Shown: positions 16,823-28,268 of the stretch, piece after piece
Position numbering within the stretch: the stretch's first letter is position 1
Layout: every line of letters begins with the position of its first letter
Source: Rhodoflexus caldus
Lineage (GTDB): Bacteria; Bacteroidota; Bacteroidia; Cytophagales; Thermoflexibacteraceae
Length of the DNA: 64,000 nucleotides
Reading direction: 5' to 3'
Assembly (NCBI RefSeq): GCF_021206925.1
Contig: NZ_JAJPRF010000003.1
Coordinates: 310,001 to 374,000, forward strand
Notes under the pieces: generated by a model
Told to the model about the DNA's origin: nothing
Seen by the model: only the letters and a program-made list of their open reading frames with translations
The model's database searches: none
Program-made: the position numbers and the translations under genes

Positions 16823-16870
16823 GGCGCGTGCAACGGCGCGTGCAACGGCGCGTGCAACGGCGCGTGCAAC
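16823..16870 (+). repeat. Tandem repeat, 12-bp unit GGCGCGTGCAAC, four perfect copies
   Basis: Four exact head-to-tail copies of a 12-bp GC-rich unit in the gap between the peroxidase gene and a small Cys-rich gene. The internal CGTGCAACG is present in reverse complement (20496-20504) inside the dispersed repeat after leuD, where a different 12-bp unit is also repeated four times. Confidence 0.9.
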
Positions 16871-17214: not shown

Positions 17215-17262
17215 ATGAATGTTGTCATTCTTACAGAAAATAGTTAATGAGGTTAACTATTT
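17215..17262 (+). promoter_or_regulatory. Possible leuC leader: 10-codon peptide MNVVILTENS plus stem-loop
   Basis: A short frame (17215-17247) encodes MNVVILTENS with Val-Val-Ile-Leu in a row. Its stop codon lies inside a perfect 10-bp inverted repeat, AAATAGTTAA (17238-17247), loop TGAGG, and the complement (17253-17262). No T-tract follows, so it is not a simple terminator. The first arm and loop are part of a 20-bp sequence also found before ilvB. It could be a translational leader or an operator. Confidence 0.45.
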
Positions 17263-18737: not shown

Positions 18738-19319
18738 ATGACAGAGGCTATCACATTGTCGTTCAAATCAATAGGCGGGCTTTCGCAAGAGGAGTTCATG
18801 CAGTTCTGTCTGGAAAATCCCGACCTGAAATTTGAACGCACATCCGAAGGACAAATCATCATTACGCCAAATACGGGAGGACGAACGGGAGATTTAAATT
18901 CCGAAATCAACATGCAATTGCGCCTTTGGAATAAGGCGACTAATCTTGGAAAAGTATTTGACTCATCTACCTCTTTTCGTCTGGCAAGCGGTGCGGTGCG
19001 TTCACCCGATGCCGCGTGGATAGCCAAAGAGCGGTGGGAGCAATTGTCGGAACAGGAGAAAGAGGAGCATCCACCGCTTTGTTCTGACTTCATTGTTGAG
19101 TTACGTGGGGAGACGGAAACTATCGGCGAGCTAACGGAACGCATACAAGAATTTATTACCAACGGCTGCCGTTTGGCATGGTTGATTGATGCCGATGCAC
19201 AAACGGTTTACGTGTATCGTCCCGATGCTGTACCGGAAACGGTGCAGGGTTTCAATCAACGCCTTAGCGGCGGAGATGTACTGCCCGGCTTTGAGTTAGA
19301 CCTTTCGCAGTTGCAATGA
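18738..19319 (+). CDS. Uma2-family (DUF820) putative endonuclease
   Basis: The 193-residue protein shows the PD-(D/E)xK-like layout of Uma2 proteins: GQIIITPNTGGRTGDLNSEI, SSTSFRLASGAVRSPDAAWI with the conserved SPDAAW, DFIVELRGETETI, and WLIDADAQTVYVYRPD near the end. These proteins are abundant in cyanobacteria and some Bacteroidota and frequently sit near mobile DNA; their targets are unknown. It interrupts the usual leuC-leuD pair, 32 bp after leuC, and overlaps the next ORF by 4 bp. Confidence 0.92.
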   Translation: MTEAITLSFKSIGGLSQEEFMQFCLENPDLKFERTSEGQIIITPNTGGRTGDLNSEINMQLRLWNKATNLGKVFDSSTSFRLASGAVRSPDAAWIAKERWEQLSEQEKEEHPPLCSDFIVELRGETETIGELTERIQEFITNGCRLAWLIDADAQTVYVYRPDAVPETVQGFNQRLSGGDVLPGFELDLSQLQ

Positions 19320-21787: not shown

Positions 21788-22951
21788 ATGAGTAACCGAG
21801 TCTATGTGTTTGACACCACGCTGCGCGACGGCGAACAGGTGCCGGGATGTCAGTTGAACACACAGGAAAAAATCATGGTCGCCCGCGAGTTGGAAGCCTT
21901 GGGCGTGGATATTATTGAAGCAGGTTTCCCGATTTCCAGCCCAGAAGACTTCCGTTCGGTACAGGAAATTTCCAAAGCCGTCAGTGAACCCGTGATTTGC
22001 GGGTTGAGCCGTGCCGTAGAAAAGGACATCAAAACCGCAGCCGAAGCCTTGCAGTATGCTAAGCGCAAGCGCATACATACGGGATTGGGTGCTTCGGATT
22101 TCCACATTGAGCACAAATTCCGTTCTACCCGCGAGGAAATGTTGGAACGCGCCGTTCGCGCCGTTAAATACGCCAAATCGTTTGTGGAAGATGTGGAATT
22201 TTTTGCCGAAGATGCCGGACGCGCCGACCCTGTCTATCTGGCGCAGATGATTGAATTAGTTATTGCCGCAGGTGCAACCGTGGTCAATATTCCCGATACG
22301 ACGGGCTACTGCCTGCCGCATGAATACGGAGCCAAAATCAAGTATTTGGTGGAAAACGTAAAAGGCATAGAAAAAGCCACCATTTCGGTACACTGCCACA
22401 ACGACTTGGGGCTGGCTACGGCAAATTCCCTGTACGGGCTGATTAACGGTGCGCGGCAGGTAGAATGTACCATGAACGGCATCGGCGAACGTGCCGGCAA
22501 TACTTCACTGGAAGAGGTGGTAATGATTCTGAAAACCCACAAATACCTCGGATTGGAAACCAATATCAAAACCCAACAACTTGGGCCGTTGAGCAAACTC
22601 GTTTCGCGCCTGATGCGGATGCCCGTGCAGCCCAATAAAGCGATTGTGGGAGCAAATGCATTTGCACACTCATCAGGTATCCATCAGGACGGCGTATTGA
22701 AGCACCGCGAGAACTACGAAATTATTGACCCTGCCGATGTGGGCGCAGGCAGCAGCAGCATTGTACTCACTGCCCGCAGCGGACGTGCCGCACTGAACTA
22801 TCGCTTGGAAAACATCGGCTTCAAGTTAGACCGTGCCGAGCTGGACATGGCCTATGAGCAATTCCTCATCTTGGCAGACCAATATAAAAACATCAACGAC
22901 GACCATTTGCAACAGCTCATGGCAAAAATGCAGCTTAAAGCCGAAGTTTAA
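21788..22951 (+). CDS. leuA: 2-isopropylmalate synthase, short form without regulatory domain
   Basis: The 387-residue protein has the TIM-barrel catalytic domain: [17 protein letters not shown], the metal-binding [25 protein letters not shown], and the helical subdomain [18 protein letters not shown]. It condenses acetyl-CoA with 2-oxoisovalerate. It ends about 120-130 residues earlier than classical LeuA, lacking the C-terminal leucine-binding domain that gives feedback inhibition. Short LeuA proteins exist in Bacteroidota as far as I know, so this need not be a truncation. Control may rest more on transcription, and an attenuator follows directly. Confidence 0.93.
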
Positions 22952-22978
22952 AAATTTTCAAAGAAACATGGCCAACCC

Positions 22979-23010
22979 TTTGGACTTTTCAATGCGGATG
23001 CGTAATTTTG
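22979..23010 (+). promoter_or_regulatory. Promoter of the ilv operon, upstream of the attenuator
   Basis: TTTG (22979-22982), 20-bp spacer, TAATTTTG (23003-23010) is a full match to the Bacteroidota promoter. Transcription would begin about 23017, roughly 12 nt before the leader peptide ATG at 23029. Confidence 0.75.
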
Positions 23011-23028
23011 AGAAAATCGTTAAAACTG

Positions 23029-23082
23029 ATGTTGTTCAATATTGTTGTGCTGGTCATTATTCTTCTGCCGATTGTCGGATGA
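23029..23082 (+). CDS. ilv leader peptide (17 residues, branched-chain-rich)
   Basis: The frame encodes MLFNIVVLVIILLPIVG followed by TGA. Twelve of 17 residues are Ile, Leu or Val, the three end products of the downstream genes ilvE-ilvD-ilvB-ilvN. It lies between a strong promoter and a rho-independent terminator. Ribosome stalling at these codons when charged tRNA is scarce would favour the antiterminator (23074-23081 with 23119-23126). The frame has no other apparent use, and its composition and position are those of a ribosome-mediated attenuator leader like those of enterobacterial ilv operons. Confidence 0.85.
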   Translation: MLFNIVVLVIILLPIVG

Positions 23083-23146
23083 GAAGTGGCCTGTTGCACA
23101 CATAAATAGAAGCCTTTCCATCCGACCTGATGGAAAGGCTTTTTTA
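23074..23146 (+). terminator. ilv attenuator: antiterminator segment and rho-independent terminator
   Basis: Terminator: AAGCCTTTCCATC (23110-23122), loop CGACCT, complement (23129-23141), running into six T. Antiterminator: GTCGGATG (23074-23081, over the leader stop) is the exact complement of CATCCGAC (23119-23126), which includes the end of the terminator's left arm. A third, competing pair CCGA (23068-23071) with TCGG (23075-23078) lies in the leader codons. These are the 1:2, 2:3 and 3:4 pairings of a classical attenuator. Confidence 0.88.
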
Positions 23147-23184
23147 TAAGTATTCTTCGGCAACCTTATCAAAACCATACAACC

Positions 23185-24075
23185 ATGTATTACAACGACA
23201 AGACCGTTTCATTTTTTGACGGCAAATTTTTGAAAAGTAAAGACACAGGCATTAGTCCCTATTCACAAAGCCTCCACTATGGACTGGGGGTTTTTGAAGG
23301 ACTGAAAGCCTATCAGACACAGCACGGCGTGCGCATCTTCAAGCCAATGGAACATTTTGCCCGCATGAAAAAAACCGCGGAAGCCTTGCACATGAAGTTT
23401 GACTACGACACAGCCGAACTGGAAAAGATTGCTTATGAATTATTGGAACGCAACAAACTGAAAAATGCCTATATACGCCCCATACTCATTGCAGCCGACA
23501 ATATGGGGCTTATGGCAGGAGGCGATGCCAAGTTGTTTATGGCTGCTTGGAAGTGGCCGCGCTACCTTGGCGACCGACTGCTCAATACTTGTATCAGCCC
23601 ATATGTGCGCATTAGCCCCAAGGCAATGCCTGTGATGGGTAAAATTACCGGCAGCTATGTACCCAACATTATGGCAAGTACCGAAGCCAAACAACGCGGC
23701 TTTGACGAAGCTATTATGCTGGATGAAACCGGCTGTGTGGCACAAGCGCCGGGTTCTAATATTTTCATAGAAAAAGACGGCATACTCATCACCCCTCCTT
23801 TGGGATATATCATGCCCGGCATTACCCGCGCAACAGTAATGGATTTGGCAAAATCCCTGAAAATAGAAGTCCGCGAACGCATCATTACAGTAGAAGAACT
23901 TTTGGAAGCCGATGCTGCCATATTTACCGGAACGGCAACCGAAGTGGCAGGTATTGCCTCTGTGGATGGCAATTTACTGAAACTGCCTTTTAACAAATCG
24001 CAATGTGCCCGTATCGCAGAGGCTTACAATGAATTGGTACATTCTGTTCACGAACCGGCCTATACAATCATCTGA
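23185..24075 (+). CDS. ilvE: Branched-chain amino acid aminotransferase
   Basis: The 296-residue fold-type IV PLP enzyme makes Leu, Ile and Val from their 2-oxo acids. Visible: [29 protein letters not shown], the PLP lysine in [13 protein letters not shown] (about K153), [15 protein letters not shown] and [16 protein letters not shown]. It is the first structural gene after the attenuator. Its last base is the first base of the ilvD start (a one-base overlap of TGA and ATG), which points to translational coupling. Confidence 0.95.
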
Positions 24076-25766
24076 TGGAACTCAATAAATTCAGTCGCAC
24101 TTTTACTCAGGACGAAAGTCTGCCTGCTGCCAAAGCCATGCTCTACGGCGTGGGGCTTACCGATGAGGACATGAATAAAGCCCAAATCGGGATTGCCAGC
24201 ACAGGCTACGAGGGCAATACCTGCAACATGCACCTCAATGCACTTGCCACACGCGTTAAGGCAAGTTTGAATGCAACCAATAAACTCATCGGCTTAACTT
24301 TTAATACGATTGGTGTTTCGGATGGCATGACCAATGGCACGGATTGGATGCGCTACTCGCTGCCCAGCCGCGATGTGATTGCCGATTCCATAGAAACCAT
24401 TGTCGGCGGGCAATGCTACGACGGCGTGGTTGCCCTCGTCGGCTGCGACAAAAACATGCCCGGTGCCATGATTGCCATCGGCAGATTGAACCGCCCCGCC
24501 ATTGTCGTTTACGGCGGTACCATCAACTCGGGACGCTACGACTACGGGCAATACAAAGGCAAAAAATTGGACATCATCTCGGTTTTTGAGGCTTACGGAA
24601 AAAAAGTTGCCGGAACTATTACCGACGAAGAATACAAAGGCGTTATCAAAAACGCTATTCCGGGTGCAGGTGCTTGCGGCGGCATGTACACCGCCAACAC
24701 AATGGCAACAGCCATTGAAGCCTTGGGCATGAGTTTGCCCAACAGCAGTTCGTTTCCTGCCATCAGCCCGATGAAGCACGCCGAATGCGACCAGATTGGT
24801 GAGGCGATGTTCCGGGCCCTGCAACTGGATTTGAAGCCTCGCGACATCATGACTTTTGAAGCCTTTGAAAACGCCATTACGATGGTTATGGCGTTGGGAG
24901 GCTCTACCAATGCCGTGCTGCACCTGTTGGCAATGGCAAAAACCGTAGGCGTAAAACTCACCCTTGCCGATTTTCAGCGCATCAGCGACCGCACGCCCTA
25001 CATTGCCGATTTGAAACCGAGCGGCAAGTATTTCATGGAAGACCTTTGCAACATTGGCGGCGTACAGGCAGTGATGAAAATGCTCCATGCCGAAGGACTC
25101 ATCCATGGCGATTGCATGACCATTACAGGCAAAACCATTGCCGAAAACCTTGCTGCTTCGTCAGGTTTGCAAGAAGGGCAGGATATCATCCGCCCGCTCA
25201 GTCACCCGATTAAAGCCACCGGTCATATCCAAATTTTGCAAGGCAACCTTGCTCCCGAAGGGGCGGTAGCCAAAATTACAGGCAAAGAAGGCGAACGCTT
25301 TGAAGGCAAAGCCCGTGTATACGATTCGGAACAGGCATTGAACGAAGGCATCGCCCGTCAGGAAATTCAGCCCGGCGATGTGGTTGTTATCCGCTATTGC
25401 GGACCCAAAGGCGCGCCCGGCATGCCCGAAATGCTCAAACCGACTTCGGCTATCATGGGCTCGGGCTTGGGCGATAAAGTGGCACTCATCACCGACGGGC
25501 GTTTTTCAGGTGGAACGCACGGCTTCGTAGTCGGACACATTACGCCCGAGGCACAAGTCGGCGGCCCTATTGCCCTCATCCGCAATGGCGACACCATCAT
25601 TATTGATGCGGTCAATCGCCGATTGGAGGTGCTGGTGAGCGACGAGGAACTTGCCCAACGCCGCCGCGAGTGGCAGATGCCACCCTACAAAGTCCAAAGC
25701 GGGGCACTTTGGAAATACATCAAAAATGTAAGTTCTGCTTCCGAAGGCTGCGTTACCGATGCATAA
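24075..25766 (+). CDS. ilvD: Dihydroxy-acid dehydratase
   Basis: The 563-residue Fe-S enzyme dehydrates dihydroxyisovalerate and its isoleucine counterpart. Cluster-linked cysteines are in [22 protein letters not shown] and [14 protein letters not shown]; further family blocks are [32 protein letters not shown] and [15 protein letters not shown]. Length is typical. It overlaps ilvE by one base, so the attenuator before ilvE also governs it. Confidence 0.97.
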
Positions 25767-25771
25767 AAAAG

Positions 25772-25836
25772 CATAACGGAAGCCGTTATGAGGTTTACCA
25801 ACGAAAATCTATCAACAAAATAGTTAATGAGGTTAA
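25772..25836 (+). promoter_or_regulatory. ilvB upstream elements: hairpin and 20-bp sequence shared with leuC
   Basis: A perfect 8-bp hairpin, CATAACGG (25772-25779), loop AAG, complement (25783-25790), starts just after the ilvD stop. Then AAAATAGTTAATGAGGTTAA (25817-25836) is identical to 17237-17256 before leuC. The gap to the ilvB ATG is 93 bp and holds no exact TAnnTTTG promoter and no terminator. Confidence 0.55.
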
Positions 25837-25929
25837 TCAATTTTAGGCAATTTTATGGGAATGCTTTTGCAGGAAGAGGCTGATTTGTCCACAGCCATCC
25901 ATTCACAAACCGTATTAGGGGAGTGCATC

Positions 25930-27624
25930 ATGGAGAAAAAAGGAATCAGCGGGGCGGAAGCGGTGGTGCTGTCGCTGCTGGCTGAGGGAGTTGAGTGTGT
26001 ATTTGGCTATCCGGGCGGTGCCATTATGCCGGTTTATGATGCGCTGTATGACTACCGCGACCGATTGCAGCACTTTTTGGTGCGACATGAACAAGGCGCA
26101 GCTCATGCCGCGCAGGGTTACGCAAGGGTGCAACGCCGTGCAGGCGTTTGCATGGCAACTTCCGGGCCGGGGGCTACTAACCTCATCACCGGTATTGCCG
26201 ATGCGATGATTGATTCTACCCCGATTGTCTGCATTACGGGGCAGGTCGGCAAGCATTTGCTCGGCACGGATGCCTTTCAGGAAACCGACGTAATTGGTAT
26301 TTCTATGCCTATTACCAAATGGAACTATCAGGTTACGCGTGCCGAGGAGATTCCCGAAGCAATTGCAAAAGCATTCTACATTGCCCAAAGCGGTCGCCCG
26401 GGGCCTGTGCTGATTGACATTACCAAAAATGCCCAAACCGAATTTTTTGATTTTCAGTACCGCAAGTGCACCAAAATCCGCAGCTATTTCCCCAAGCGAA
26501 AAGTGGATTTGAGCTCCGTAGAACGCGCCGCTGACCTGATTAACAACGCCGAGCGTCCTTTTATGCTCATCGGGCAGGGGGTAGTGCTGTCGGGTGCGCA
26601 GGCCGAAGTAAAAGAAATGGCCGAAAAAGCGGGCATCCCTGTGGCAAGCACCTTGCTGGGGCTTTCTGCCATGAGCGTACACCACCCGCAATACGTAGGA
26701 TATTTGGGTATGCACGGCAACTACGGCCCCAATGTGCTTACCAACGAATGCGATGTACTCATTGCAGTCGGTATGCGATTTGATGACCGCGTTACAGGTC
26801 GTTTGGACGGCTACGCCAAGCAGGCAAAAGTGATTCACATAGAAATTGACCCTGCCGAAATTGATAAAAACGTAAAGACCGAAGTTGCCGTTGTGGCAGA
26901 TGCCAAAGAAGCATTACAGGCACTGTTGCCACTGTTGGAAGTAAAGCGCTACCCCGAATGGATGGCCAAGTTTAAGGAATGTGATGCAACCGAGCGGGAA
27001 AAAGTTATTTTGAAAGACTTTGCACCCACTACATCGCTGCCAAAAATGGCGGAAGTCATCCATATGCTTTCCCAACTGACACAAGGCAAAGCTATCATAG
27101 CTACCGACGTAGGGCAGCATCAGATGATGGCCACGCGCTACTATGAATTTGACGAGCCGTACAGCAATATCACTTCCGGCGGTTTGGGAACAATGGGCTT
27201 TTGCTTGCCGGCAGCCATTGGTGCAAAGGTAGGCCGCCCCGACAGGCAGGTAGTGGCAGTTGTTGGCGATGGCGGCTTCCAAATGACTTTACAGGAACTG
27301 GGCGTTATCATGCAGTACAATATCCCCGTGAAAATACTTGTGCTGAACAACAACTTCTTGGGTATGGTGCGCCAGTGGCAACAGTTGTTTTTTGACCGGC
27401 GCTATTCCAGCGTGGATATTCAGAACCCCGATTTTGTGAAGTTGGCAGAGTCGTACTATATCCCTGCGCGCCGCGTAGACAACCGCGAAGAACTGGGCGA
27501 AGCATTAGAAGAAATGCTCAACAGCCAATCCGCCTATTTTCTGGAAGTAATGGTAGAAAAAGAAGATAACGTATTCCCGATGGTGCCTGCGGGGGCTTCG
27601 GTTGCCGAAATTCGGCTGGAATAG
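25930..27624 (+). CDS. ilvB: Acetolactate synthase, large (catalytic) subunit
   Basis: The 564-residue thiamine diphosphate enzyme catalyses the first common step to Val, Leu and Ile. Motifs: VECVFGYPGGAIMPVYDAL, the catalytic glutamate in VRHEQGAAHAAQGYAR, TSGPGATNLITGIADA, FAD-region GYLGMHGNYGPNVL, and the ThDP motif GDGGFQMTLQELG to LVLNNNFLGMVRQWQ. I start at MEKKGISGAEAV (25930), the usual N-terminus, rather than an in-frame ATG 25 codons earlier. ilvN follows. Confidence 0.96.
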   Translation: MEKKGISGAEAVVLSLLAEGVECVFGYPGGAIMPVYDALYDYRDRLQHFLVRHEQGAAHAAQGYARVQRRAGVCMATSGPGATNLITGIADAMIDSTPIVCITGQVGKHLLGTDAFQETDVIGISMPITKWNYQVTRAEEIPEAIAKAFYIAQSGRPGPVLIDITKNAQTEFFDFQYRKCTKIRSYFPKRKVDLSSVERAADLINNAERPFMLIGQGVVLSGAQAEVKEMAEKAGIPVASTLLGLSAMSVHHPQYVGYLGMHGNYGPNVLTNECDVLIAVGMRFDDRVTGRLDGYAKQAKVIHIEIDPAEIDKNVKTEVAVVADAKEALQALLPLLEVKRYPEWMAKFKECDATEREKVILKDFAPTTSLPKMAEVIHMLSQLTQGKAIIATDVGQHQMMATRYYEFDEPYSNITSGGLGTMGFCLPAAIGAKVGRPDRQVVAVVGDGGFQMTLQELGVIMQYNIPVKILVLNNNFLGMVRQWQQLFFDRRYSSVDIQNPDFVKLAESYYIPARRVDNREELGEALEEMLNSQSAYFLEVMVEKEDNVFPMVPAGASVAEIRLE

Positions 27625-27716: not shown

Positions 27717-28268
27717 ATGCAAGCCTTAGAAGAAAATCAGCAGCGATATACTGTATCTATTTTCACAGAAGACAAAGTCGGCCTTTTAAGTCGCATCACG
27801 GCCATTTTTACGCGCCGTAAGATTAATGTGGACAGTTTGACCGTTTCCGAAACGGAAAACAAAGGCATCAGCCGATTTACGGTAGTTATCCGCACCGCTC
27901 CCGACCGCATCGGCGTGATTGTGCGACAGATTGAAAAACAAGTGGAGGTATTGAAAGCCTTTTATTACAACGACGAGCAGATTGTTTATCAGGAATTGGC
28001 ATTGTACAAAATGCCGACGGAAGCATTTGCAGGCAGCCAAGTAGTAGAAAAAATCATCCGCGATAACTACGCCCGCGTCATTACGATTGAGCCGGAGTTT
28101 ATAGTGATTGAGAAAACAGGCCATGAAGAGGAAACCATGAAACTGTTTAATGAACTTAAACCCTATGGCGTACTGAGTTTTGTCCGCTCCGGCAGAATTG
28201 CCATAGCCAAGCCGATGAAACTGTTAAAGGTGCATTTGGAGGAATTGGAAAATATCTCGGCGTTTTAG
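27717..28268 (+). CDS. ilvN: Acetolactate synthase, small (regulatory) subunit
   Basis: The 183-residue protein starts with an ACT domain (YTVSIFTEDKVGLLSRITAIFTRRKINVDSLTVSETE) and a C-terminal ALS small-subunit domain. It activates the catalytic subunit and senses valine. It lies 92 bp after ilvB on the same strand and is the last gene of the cluster; ilvC and ilvA are not in this window. Its 3' end overlaps the convergent esterase gene by 4 bp. Confidence 0.95.
   Translation: MQALEENQQRYTVSIFTEDKVGLLSRITAIFTRRKINVDSLTVSETENKGISRFTVVIRTAPDRIGVIVRQIEKQVEVLKAFYYNDEQIVYQELALYKMPTEAFAGSQVVEKIIRDNYARVITIEPEFIVIEKTGHEEETMKLFNELKPYGVLSFVRSGRIAIAKPMKLLKVHLEELENISAF

Follow-up and report, generated by a model that had tools for sequence, protein, structure and literature searches.

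How is branched-chain amino acid synthesis controlled in a bacterium whose ilv genes are preceded by a short open reading frame (ORF) rich in Ile, Leu, and Val codons and by a strong hairpin? The region between leuA and ilvE of Rhodoflexus caldus raises this question. It was analyzed within the window, a stretch of 64,000 nucleotides of contig NZ_JAJPRF010000003.1, and all coordinates below are window positions. The genes leuC, leuD, leuB, and leuA are located upstream of the region, and ilvE, ilvD, ilvB, and ilvN are located downstream. The best names for the leu and ilv genes are those of NCBIfam, with the IlvE score falling under the curated cut-off. The downstream genes are as follows.

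23185–24075, forward strand: ilvE, branched-chain aminotransferase (best match PRK06606.1, 262.8 bits, under the cut-off of 279)
24075–25766, forward strand: ilvD, dihydroxy-acid dehydratase (TIGR00110, 726 bits, above the cut-off)
25855–27624, forward strand: ilvB, acetolactate synthase large subunit (TIGR00118, 735 bits, above the cut-off)
27717–28268, forward strand: ilvN, acetolactate synthase small subunit (TIGR00119, 107 bits, above the cut-off)

The TIGR00118 match of ilvB starts at residue 32, and the true start codon of this gene may be located further inside the ORF. These matches place the four genes in the Ile/Leu/Val pathway, in agreement with an earlier note on this DNA. The same note gave the leuA–ilvE gap as 170 bp, a value that is corrected here to 233 bp (22952–23184, from the leuA end at 22951 to the ilvE start at 23185). 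Elsewhere in the window, a 193-amino acid ORF lies between leuC and leuD (18738–19319) with no NCBIfam match at an E value of 1e-10, and a tandem repeat of short gcgcgtgcaacg-like units was spotted by eye at about 16826–16870.

We propose that the gap holds a ribosome-mediated transcription attenuator of the ilvEDBN operon, with a probability of about 0.9 judged from sequence comparison and modeling. This reading, already put forward in the earlier note, is supported by conservation in the genus, recurrence in the phylum, matching of the pairing partners, and codon placement. Its parts are arranged in the following order.

22979–22982, forward strand: TTTG, predicted −33 element of a Bacteroidota-type promoter
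23003–23010, forward strand: TAATTTTG, predicted −7 element; the transcript would start near 23017
23029–23082, forward strand: leader ORF encoding MLFNIVVLVIILLPIVG (ATG at 23029, TGA at 23080–23082), with no Shine–Dalgarno sequence
23041–23067, forward strand: putative control codons I5-V6-V7-L8-V9-I10-I11-L12-L13, assigned from a footprint model and from codon placement in 89 units
23043–23102, forward strand: predicted 1:2 (protector) hairpin, with arms at 23043–23069 and 23074–23102 and a slightly shorter form in a second fold
23074–23081, forward strand: antiterminator strand 2, GTCGGATG, read directly and overlapping the last leader codons and the stop codon
23119–23126, forward strand: antiterminator strand 3, CATCCGAC, read directly within the 5′ arm and loop of the terminator
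23110–23145, forward strand: intrinsic terminator, a 13-bp stem (23110–23141) with a T run to 23145

The housekeeping promoter of Bacteroidota consists of TTTG, a spacer of about 20 nt, and TAnnTTTG. In the window, TTTG and TAATTTTG are spaced by exactly 20 nt and fit this motif without deviation, so that the full TTTG-N20-TAATTTTG site previously claimed at 22979–23010 can be read directly; through the motif, we take it to be a promoter of the Bacteroidota type, as a predicted site. Among the 67 positive loci (see below) having 90 nt upstream, the strict form TTTG-N18–22-TANNTTTG is present in three (L001–L003), and TANNTTTG within 90 nt upstream of the leader is present in 11, as compared with 6% of the shuffles. 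A scan with the promoter consensus alone was not above chance (12 sites versus 13.8 expected), and neither was one with the terminator consensus alone (22 versus 19.3), which listed the stem only on the minus strand. The argument for the attenuator is built on the occurrence of all the parts in the expected order and on their conservation.

The leader has 17 codons, of which 12 are Ile, Leu, or Val, as had been noted before, and it stands upstream of an operon for the same three amino acids. The 8-bp antiterminator is also exact: GTCGGATG at 23074–23081 is complementary to CATCCGAC at 23119–23126, and the pairing can be extended further (−22.8 kcal/mol for the fold of 23072–23127). The terminator, located between the leader and ilvE, has a stem formed by AAGCCTTTCCATC (23110–23122) and GATGGAAAGGCTT (23129–23141), with 13 bp and −19.8 kcal/mol; the six T residues of the earlier description are found at 23140–23145, two of them inside the stem. 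The CCGA/TCGG pairing proposed as the 1:2 element is present (23068–23071/23075–23078), but the predicted hairpin is far larger (23043–23102). The region 23017–23150 folds at −42.8 kcal/mol (z = −4.5), and none of 200 shuffles folded as well. Before strand 3 is transcribed, the RNA can already fold into the 1:2 hairpin (−16.8 kcal/mol for 23017–23098, a small extra hairpin included). In the equilibrium fold without a ribosome, the antiterminator is favored at 23130; the state without translation thus depends on the order of folding.

From these parts, we infer transcription of the leader, stalling, termination, and a response to Ile, Leu, and Val as follows. RNA polymerase would start near 23017, and a ribosome would enter the leader at 23029 without a Shine–Dalgarno sequence. 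When charged Ile, Val, and Leu tRNAs are plentiful, the ribosome would reach the stop codon at 23080 and cover strand 2 (23074–23081), strand 3 would pair with strand 4, and transcription would end near 23145. A shortage of any one of these tRNAs would stall the ribosome in the Ile/Val/Leu run, at about codons 5–11, with strand 2 left free; the 2:3 antiterminator would then form first, and the polymerase would read into ilvE. If the leader is not translated, the 1:2 hairpin (23043–23102) could hold strand 2 and favor termination. Read-through transcripts from leuA would face the same gate.

The position of the codons was evaluated by a simple footprint model, in which the RNA is taken as blocked as far as 14 nt beyond the codon in the A site, the reach being assumed. 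Modeled stalls with codons up to I11 in the A site leave all eight antiterminator pairs available, and stalls at L12 and L13 leave five and two, respectively. From P14 on, no pairs are left, and I15 and V16 would therefore not act as control codons. Masking of strand 2 at the leader stop in this model and the fit of each strand to its own partner (see below) point to an antiterminator and a terminator that are mutually exclusive. A corresponding bias is found in 89 units, where the frequency of Ile, Leu, and Val is 0.60–0.94 at codons 6–13 before the stop and 0.15–0.38 at codons 1–5. The longest Ile/Leu/Val run ends at a median of 9 nt before strand 2 (interquartile range, 7–11), strand 2 having been looked for only from 27 nt before to 6 nt after the leader end. 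The terminator starts at a median of 25 nt past the leader stop (range, 19–40). The scan that collected the units required an Ile/Leu/Val run and a distance of 10–45 nt, and these criteria in part preset the richness and the approximate distance; they did not fix where the run lies with respect to the stop. The codon placement supports, within the model, a stalled ribosome that frees the antiterminator. None of the 74 leaders with a first ATG has AGGAG, GGAGG, or GAGGT at −20 to −4. Bacteroidota mostly initiate translation without a Shine–Dalgarno sequence, and the leaders are in keeping with this mode of initiation.

The earlier note had suggested comparing the leuA–ilvE gap of relatives, and all three sister genomes searched retain the leader, the antiterminator, and the terminator. 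Their leaders (MLFNIAVLVITLLPIVG, MLLYAFIIVLVIILTPLVG, and MFFRNVIMVLVILLTPLG, in L002–L004) include one with a Val-to-Ala and an Ile-to-Thr change. The terminator alignment of the four genus genomes has one unpaired cell of 52. As to the compensatory stem changes sought, two are present in sister genome G001: the outer antiterminator pair is changed from G–C to C–G, and one terminator pair from C–G to U–A. However, with four sequences, 132 of 500 shuffles reach the same count of one antiterminator pair changed on both sides, and 252 of 500 reach the value observed for the terminator; the compensatory changes within the genus are suggestive. A covariance model built from the four genus sequences gave scores of 120–140 bits for the four ilv sites and at most 42 bits for the other listed sites, including the reverse complement of an ilv site itself (41.6 bits). 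Among the 90 candidates scored out of 1193 from a first look, the R. caldus genome showed no other clear copy. A match of 39.9 bits in genome G015 turned out to be its own ilvE leader (L009). At this locus, one Ile/Leu/Val leader is followed by two in-line terminator hairpins (about −262 to −44 before ilvE), the second with no obvious Ile/Leu/Val leader of its own.

Recurrence beyond the genus was analyzed in two samples. The first comprised the 450 bases before ilvE at 95 loci, 15 from relatives and 80 from named contigs picked by IlvE similarity, and is therefore not a random sample. A locus was positive if it had a leader ORF of 8–45 codons with a run of at least four Ile, Leu, or Val codons and a terminator hairpin within 10–45 nt. 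This combination was found at 81 of the 95 loci (79 of 91 after removal of four duplicates), as compared with 1/95 on the reverse strand, 1/950 in dinucleotide shuffles, and 1/240 in other windows, where the one hit proved to be the genuine leader of L041. Among the positive loci are those of Chryseolinea, Roseivirga, Ohtaekwangia, Pedobacter, Tenacibaculum, Paenimyroides, and a Fluviicola metagenome-assembled genome. Twelve of the 91 distinct loci failed the strict scan (L005, L007, L010, L012, L013, L015, L035, L077, L079, L085, L088, and L091); at L079, the terminator is 81 nt away. L006, counted as positive, was scored on the wrong leader frame, and a plausible frame is visible. The second sample started from ilvD and covered 40 of 89 matching phylum genomes (20 from the same order or class, 20 from the phylum at large), with 3 kb scanned for a terminator 10–50 nt past the leader stop. 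Candidates were found in 13 of 40 (shuffles, 6/200; reverse strands, 2/40). Two of the 13 (L182 and L190) look doubtful, and three loci missed by the scan (L201, L208, and L218) have an Ile/Leu/Val leader visible by eye. In the wider phylum outside the class, the scan found 2 of 20, and the distribution of such putative units there is patchy.

The antiterminator strands themselves differ by lineage. Strands 2 and 3 are GTCGGATG/CATCCGAC in the window, CGGGGTGGT/ACCGCCCCG in a Cyclobacteriaceae-like group, GGCGCT/AGCGCC in Pedobacter, and GATACAG/CTGTGTC in Tenacibaculum. When each leader end was paired with its own terminator, the sum was −1005 for 65 units (clusters at 90% identity), as compared with −697 (SD, 25) for permuted partners, and −327 versus −237 (SD, 14) for 24 units (70% clusters); none of 20,000 permutations was as low in either case. 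With seven units (60% clusters), 6 of 20,000 permutations were as low. A set of 18 representatives had been hand-picked after the pairing energies were seen; the test was repeated with automatic clustering, and both gave the same answer. The leader ends thus appear, as judged from predicted pairing, to be matched more closely to their own terminators than to terminators taken from other units. Antiterminator pairing was stronger than with shuffled leader ends at p ≤ 0.05 for 56 of the 89 units and at p ≤ 0.01 for 21 of them, with a mean z of −2.3; the other 33 had p values above 0.05. When close relatives were kept in the set, 11 of 89 units had their own partner ranked first, and 34 of 89 had it within the top five. 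Pair counts showed no covariation of the antiterminator inside the Cyclobacteriaceae-like group or inside Tenacibaculum.

Several lineages have two units in line. All nine Tenacibaculum loci of the first sample carry two complete Ile/Val leader–terminator units before ilvE.

About 150–430 nt before ilvE: double units of Tenacibaculum (L063, L073, L081, L089, L093, L100, L102, L103, and L105)

The first terminator and the second ATG are separated by 14–24 nt, and TANNTTTG is absent between them. L084, L192, L193, and L213 likewise carry two units. L213 belongs to a genome outside the class, and its double Ile/Val unit is located directly before an ilvE-like gene, 1215–1003 nt before ilvD; shared ancestry and transfer are candidate readings.

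These data bear on a simpler reading of the window, in which the hairpin merely terminates the upstream leu genes and the leader ORF is incidental. The stem is about 158 nt past the leuA stop and would also serve as the end signal of leuCDBA. As a full explanation, this reading is quite unlikely: it accounts neither for the leader and its codon composition nor for the antiterminator match, all of which persist across lineages, and Tenacibaculum has the unit twice. Moreover, among the positive named loci for which 1500 nt or more of upstream sequence is available (duplicates removed), all 66 carry the unit and none has a LeuA-like sequence upstream; the sole LeuA match is at L031, a genus member left out as a duplicate. 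Another reading places the main effect of the leader in translation, through re-initiation or exposure of the ilvE start region, rather than in transcription termination. In Bacteroidetes, leader genes near the start of a structural gene are frequent, with a spacing peak at 11–14 bp (PMC4833913), but in the window the leader stop and the ilvE ATG are 102 nt apart and a strong terminator with its T run lies in the interval, and we regard this reading as very unlikely. A further reading is that the same terminator is controlled by an RNA leader that binds a ligand or tRNA (a riboswitch, a T-box, or a ppGpp riboswitch). Such control would use the terminator/antiterminator logic common to riboswitch and T-box classes, and ppGpp riboswitches stand at the ilvB genes of some bacteria (PMC10272879), but it is highly improbable, as no Rfam family, aptamers and T-boxes included, reached its gathering threshold either in the window or at any of ten related loci, and the covariance model has strong matches in the genus only, while leader codons and geometry recur widely. 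Existing Rfam models thus detect nothing at these loci; for the amino-acid leader families, there were no matches at gathering in the window and none above threshold in a relaxed search, where the best was Phe_leader (RF01859; 18.8 bits versus a gathering score of 55, E = 0.73).

Ribosome-mediated attenuation, the preferred reading for ilvEDBN, appears from sequence scans to be used in this order for further amino acids. Trp leaders (WW or WWW) with strong terminators precede trpE at 4 of 15 loci (L111, L113, L116, and L119; 0/750 shuffles) and are likely trp attenuators of Cytophagales relatives. A His leader (HHHHH) precedes hisG at 1 of 15 loci (0/750 shuffles): L131, from a same-family genome, has the leader MTSLFTTLHHHHHTCPRGRLLAYVL with a terminator 27 nt past its stop and is likely a his attenuator. 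No leader unit was found before trpE or hisG of R. caldus itself. A scan of 16 pheA loci gave one weak candidate with a Phe run, which resembles the start of a membrane protein and was rejected. A short ORF with VVIL before leuC (17215–17247) was also rejected as an attenuator; the three sister genomes lack it, and no terminator follows.

A palindrome, TAGTTAATGAGGTTAACTA (TAGTTAAT-N4-TTAACTA-like), was found at 17241–17259, where the leu genes of this cluster begin after it, and is present before leuC in all four genus genomes, with a partial copy of two mismatches between ilvD and ilvB (25821–25839). It has three matches in the window, as compared with 0.03 expected, and 14 strand-wise matches genome-wide with at most one mismatch; the reversed pattern has none. 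It looks like a candidate leu/ilv repressor or activator site, which may act beside the attenuator.

Attenuation has reportedly been surveyed in bacteria by Lopatovskaya in 2010, judging by the title of that work. Leader-peptide attenuation is a known device and was suggested in the phylum earlier, for Flavobacterium psychrophilum. A 2010 survey stated that, as far as its authors knew, such systems had been demonstrated in Proteobacteria and Actinobacteria alone, and it extended the list to Firmicutes (PMC2965389). A map of Bacteroides thetaiotaomicron describes short ORFs in long 5′ regions that are reminiscent of attenuation leaders (PMC7366714). No report on ilv attenuation in Bacteroidota was found among the matches listed, most subscription papers being outside the search. 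The less ordinary features are the breadth with which the units occur in the phylum without Shine–Dalgarno sequences at their leaders and the double in-line units. We lean toward the view that Bacteroidota at large use leader-peptide attenuation without Shine–Dalgarno sequences for branched-chain synthesis and that several lineages have two in-line Ile/Val attenuators. If so, a pioneer ribosome would track RNA polymerase closely in Bacteroidota, double gating of one signal would be recurrent, and a textbook control device would be extended to a phylum in which searchable papers mention attenuation only in passing. Attenuation needs translation that keeps pace with transcription, and the phylum is mostly non-Shine–Dalgarno; these leaders would therefore be ready-made reporters of coupling. 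Their consistent geometry should make them easy to annotate.

The attenuators of Escherichia coli ilvGMEDA, ilvBN, and leu are of the leader-peptide type. The window element resembles them in the Ile/Leu/Val-rich leader, the overlapping 1:2, 2:3, and 3:4 pairings (predicted here), the intrinsic terminator, and the branched-chain operon downstream. It differs in lacking a Shine–Dalgarno sequence, in its Bacteroidota promoter type, and in having no Rfam leader match at threshold. The ilvB-II upstream ORF of Corynebacterium ilvBNC is also similar; it usually has an Ile/Leu/Val leader of 15–17 codons and a terminator stem, and a reporter was high there in minimal medium and low in rich medium (PMC10272879). 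That system belongs to another phylum and another operon and is reporter-tested, whereas the present one is known from its sequence. In the same phylum, the 2021 transcriptome of F. psychrophilum, with 5′ transcribed regions mapped by RNA-seq, gave "strong clues" for leader-peptide attenuation before amino-acid operons (PMC9723704). These candidates likewise stand upstream of amino-acid biosynthesis operons, but in another family, and ilv is unnamed in the main text ("ilv" 0 times). Tandem attenuators are reported for Salmonella mgtCBR (PMC3641672); compared with these, the Bacteroidota tandem units consist of two putative leaders of the same Ile/Val type, and the window has one such unit.
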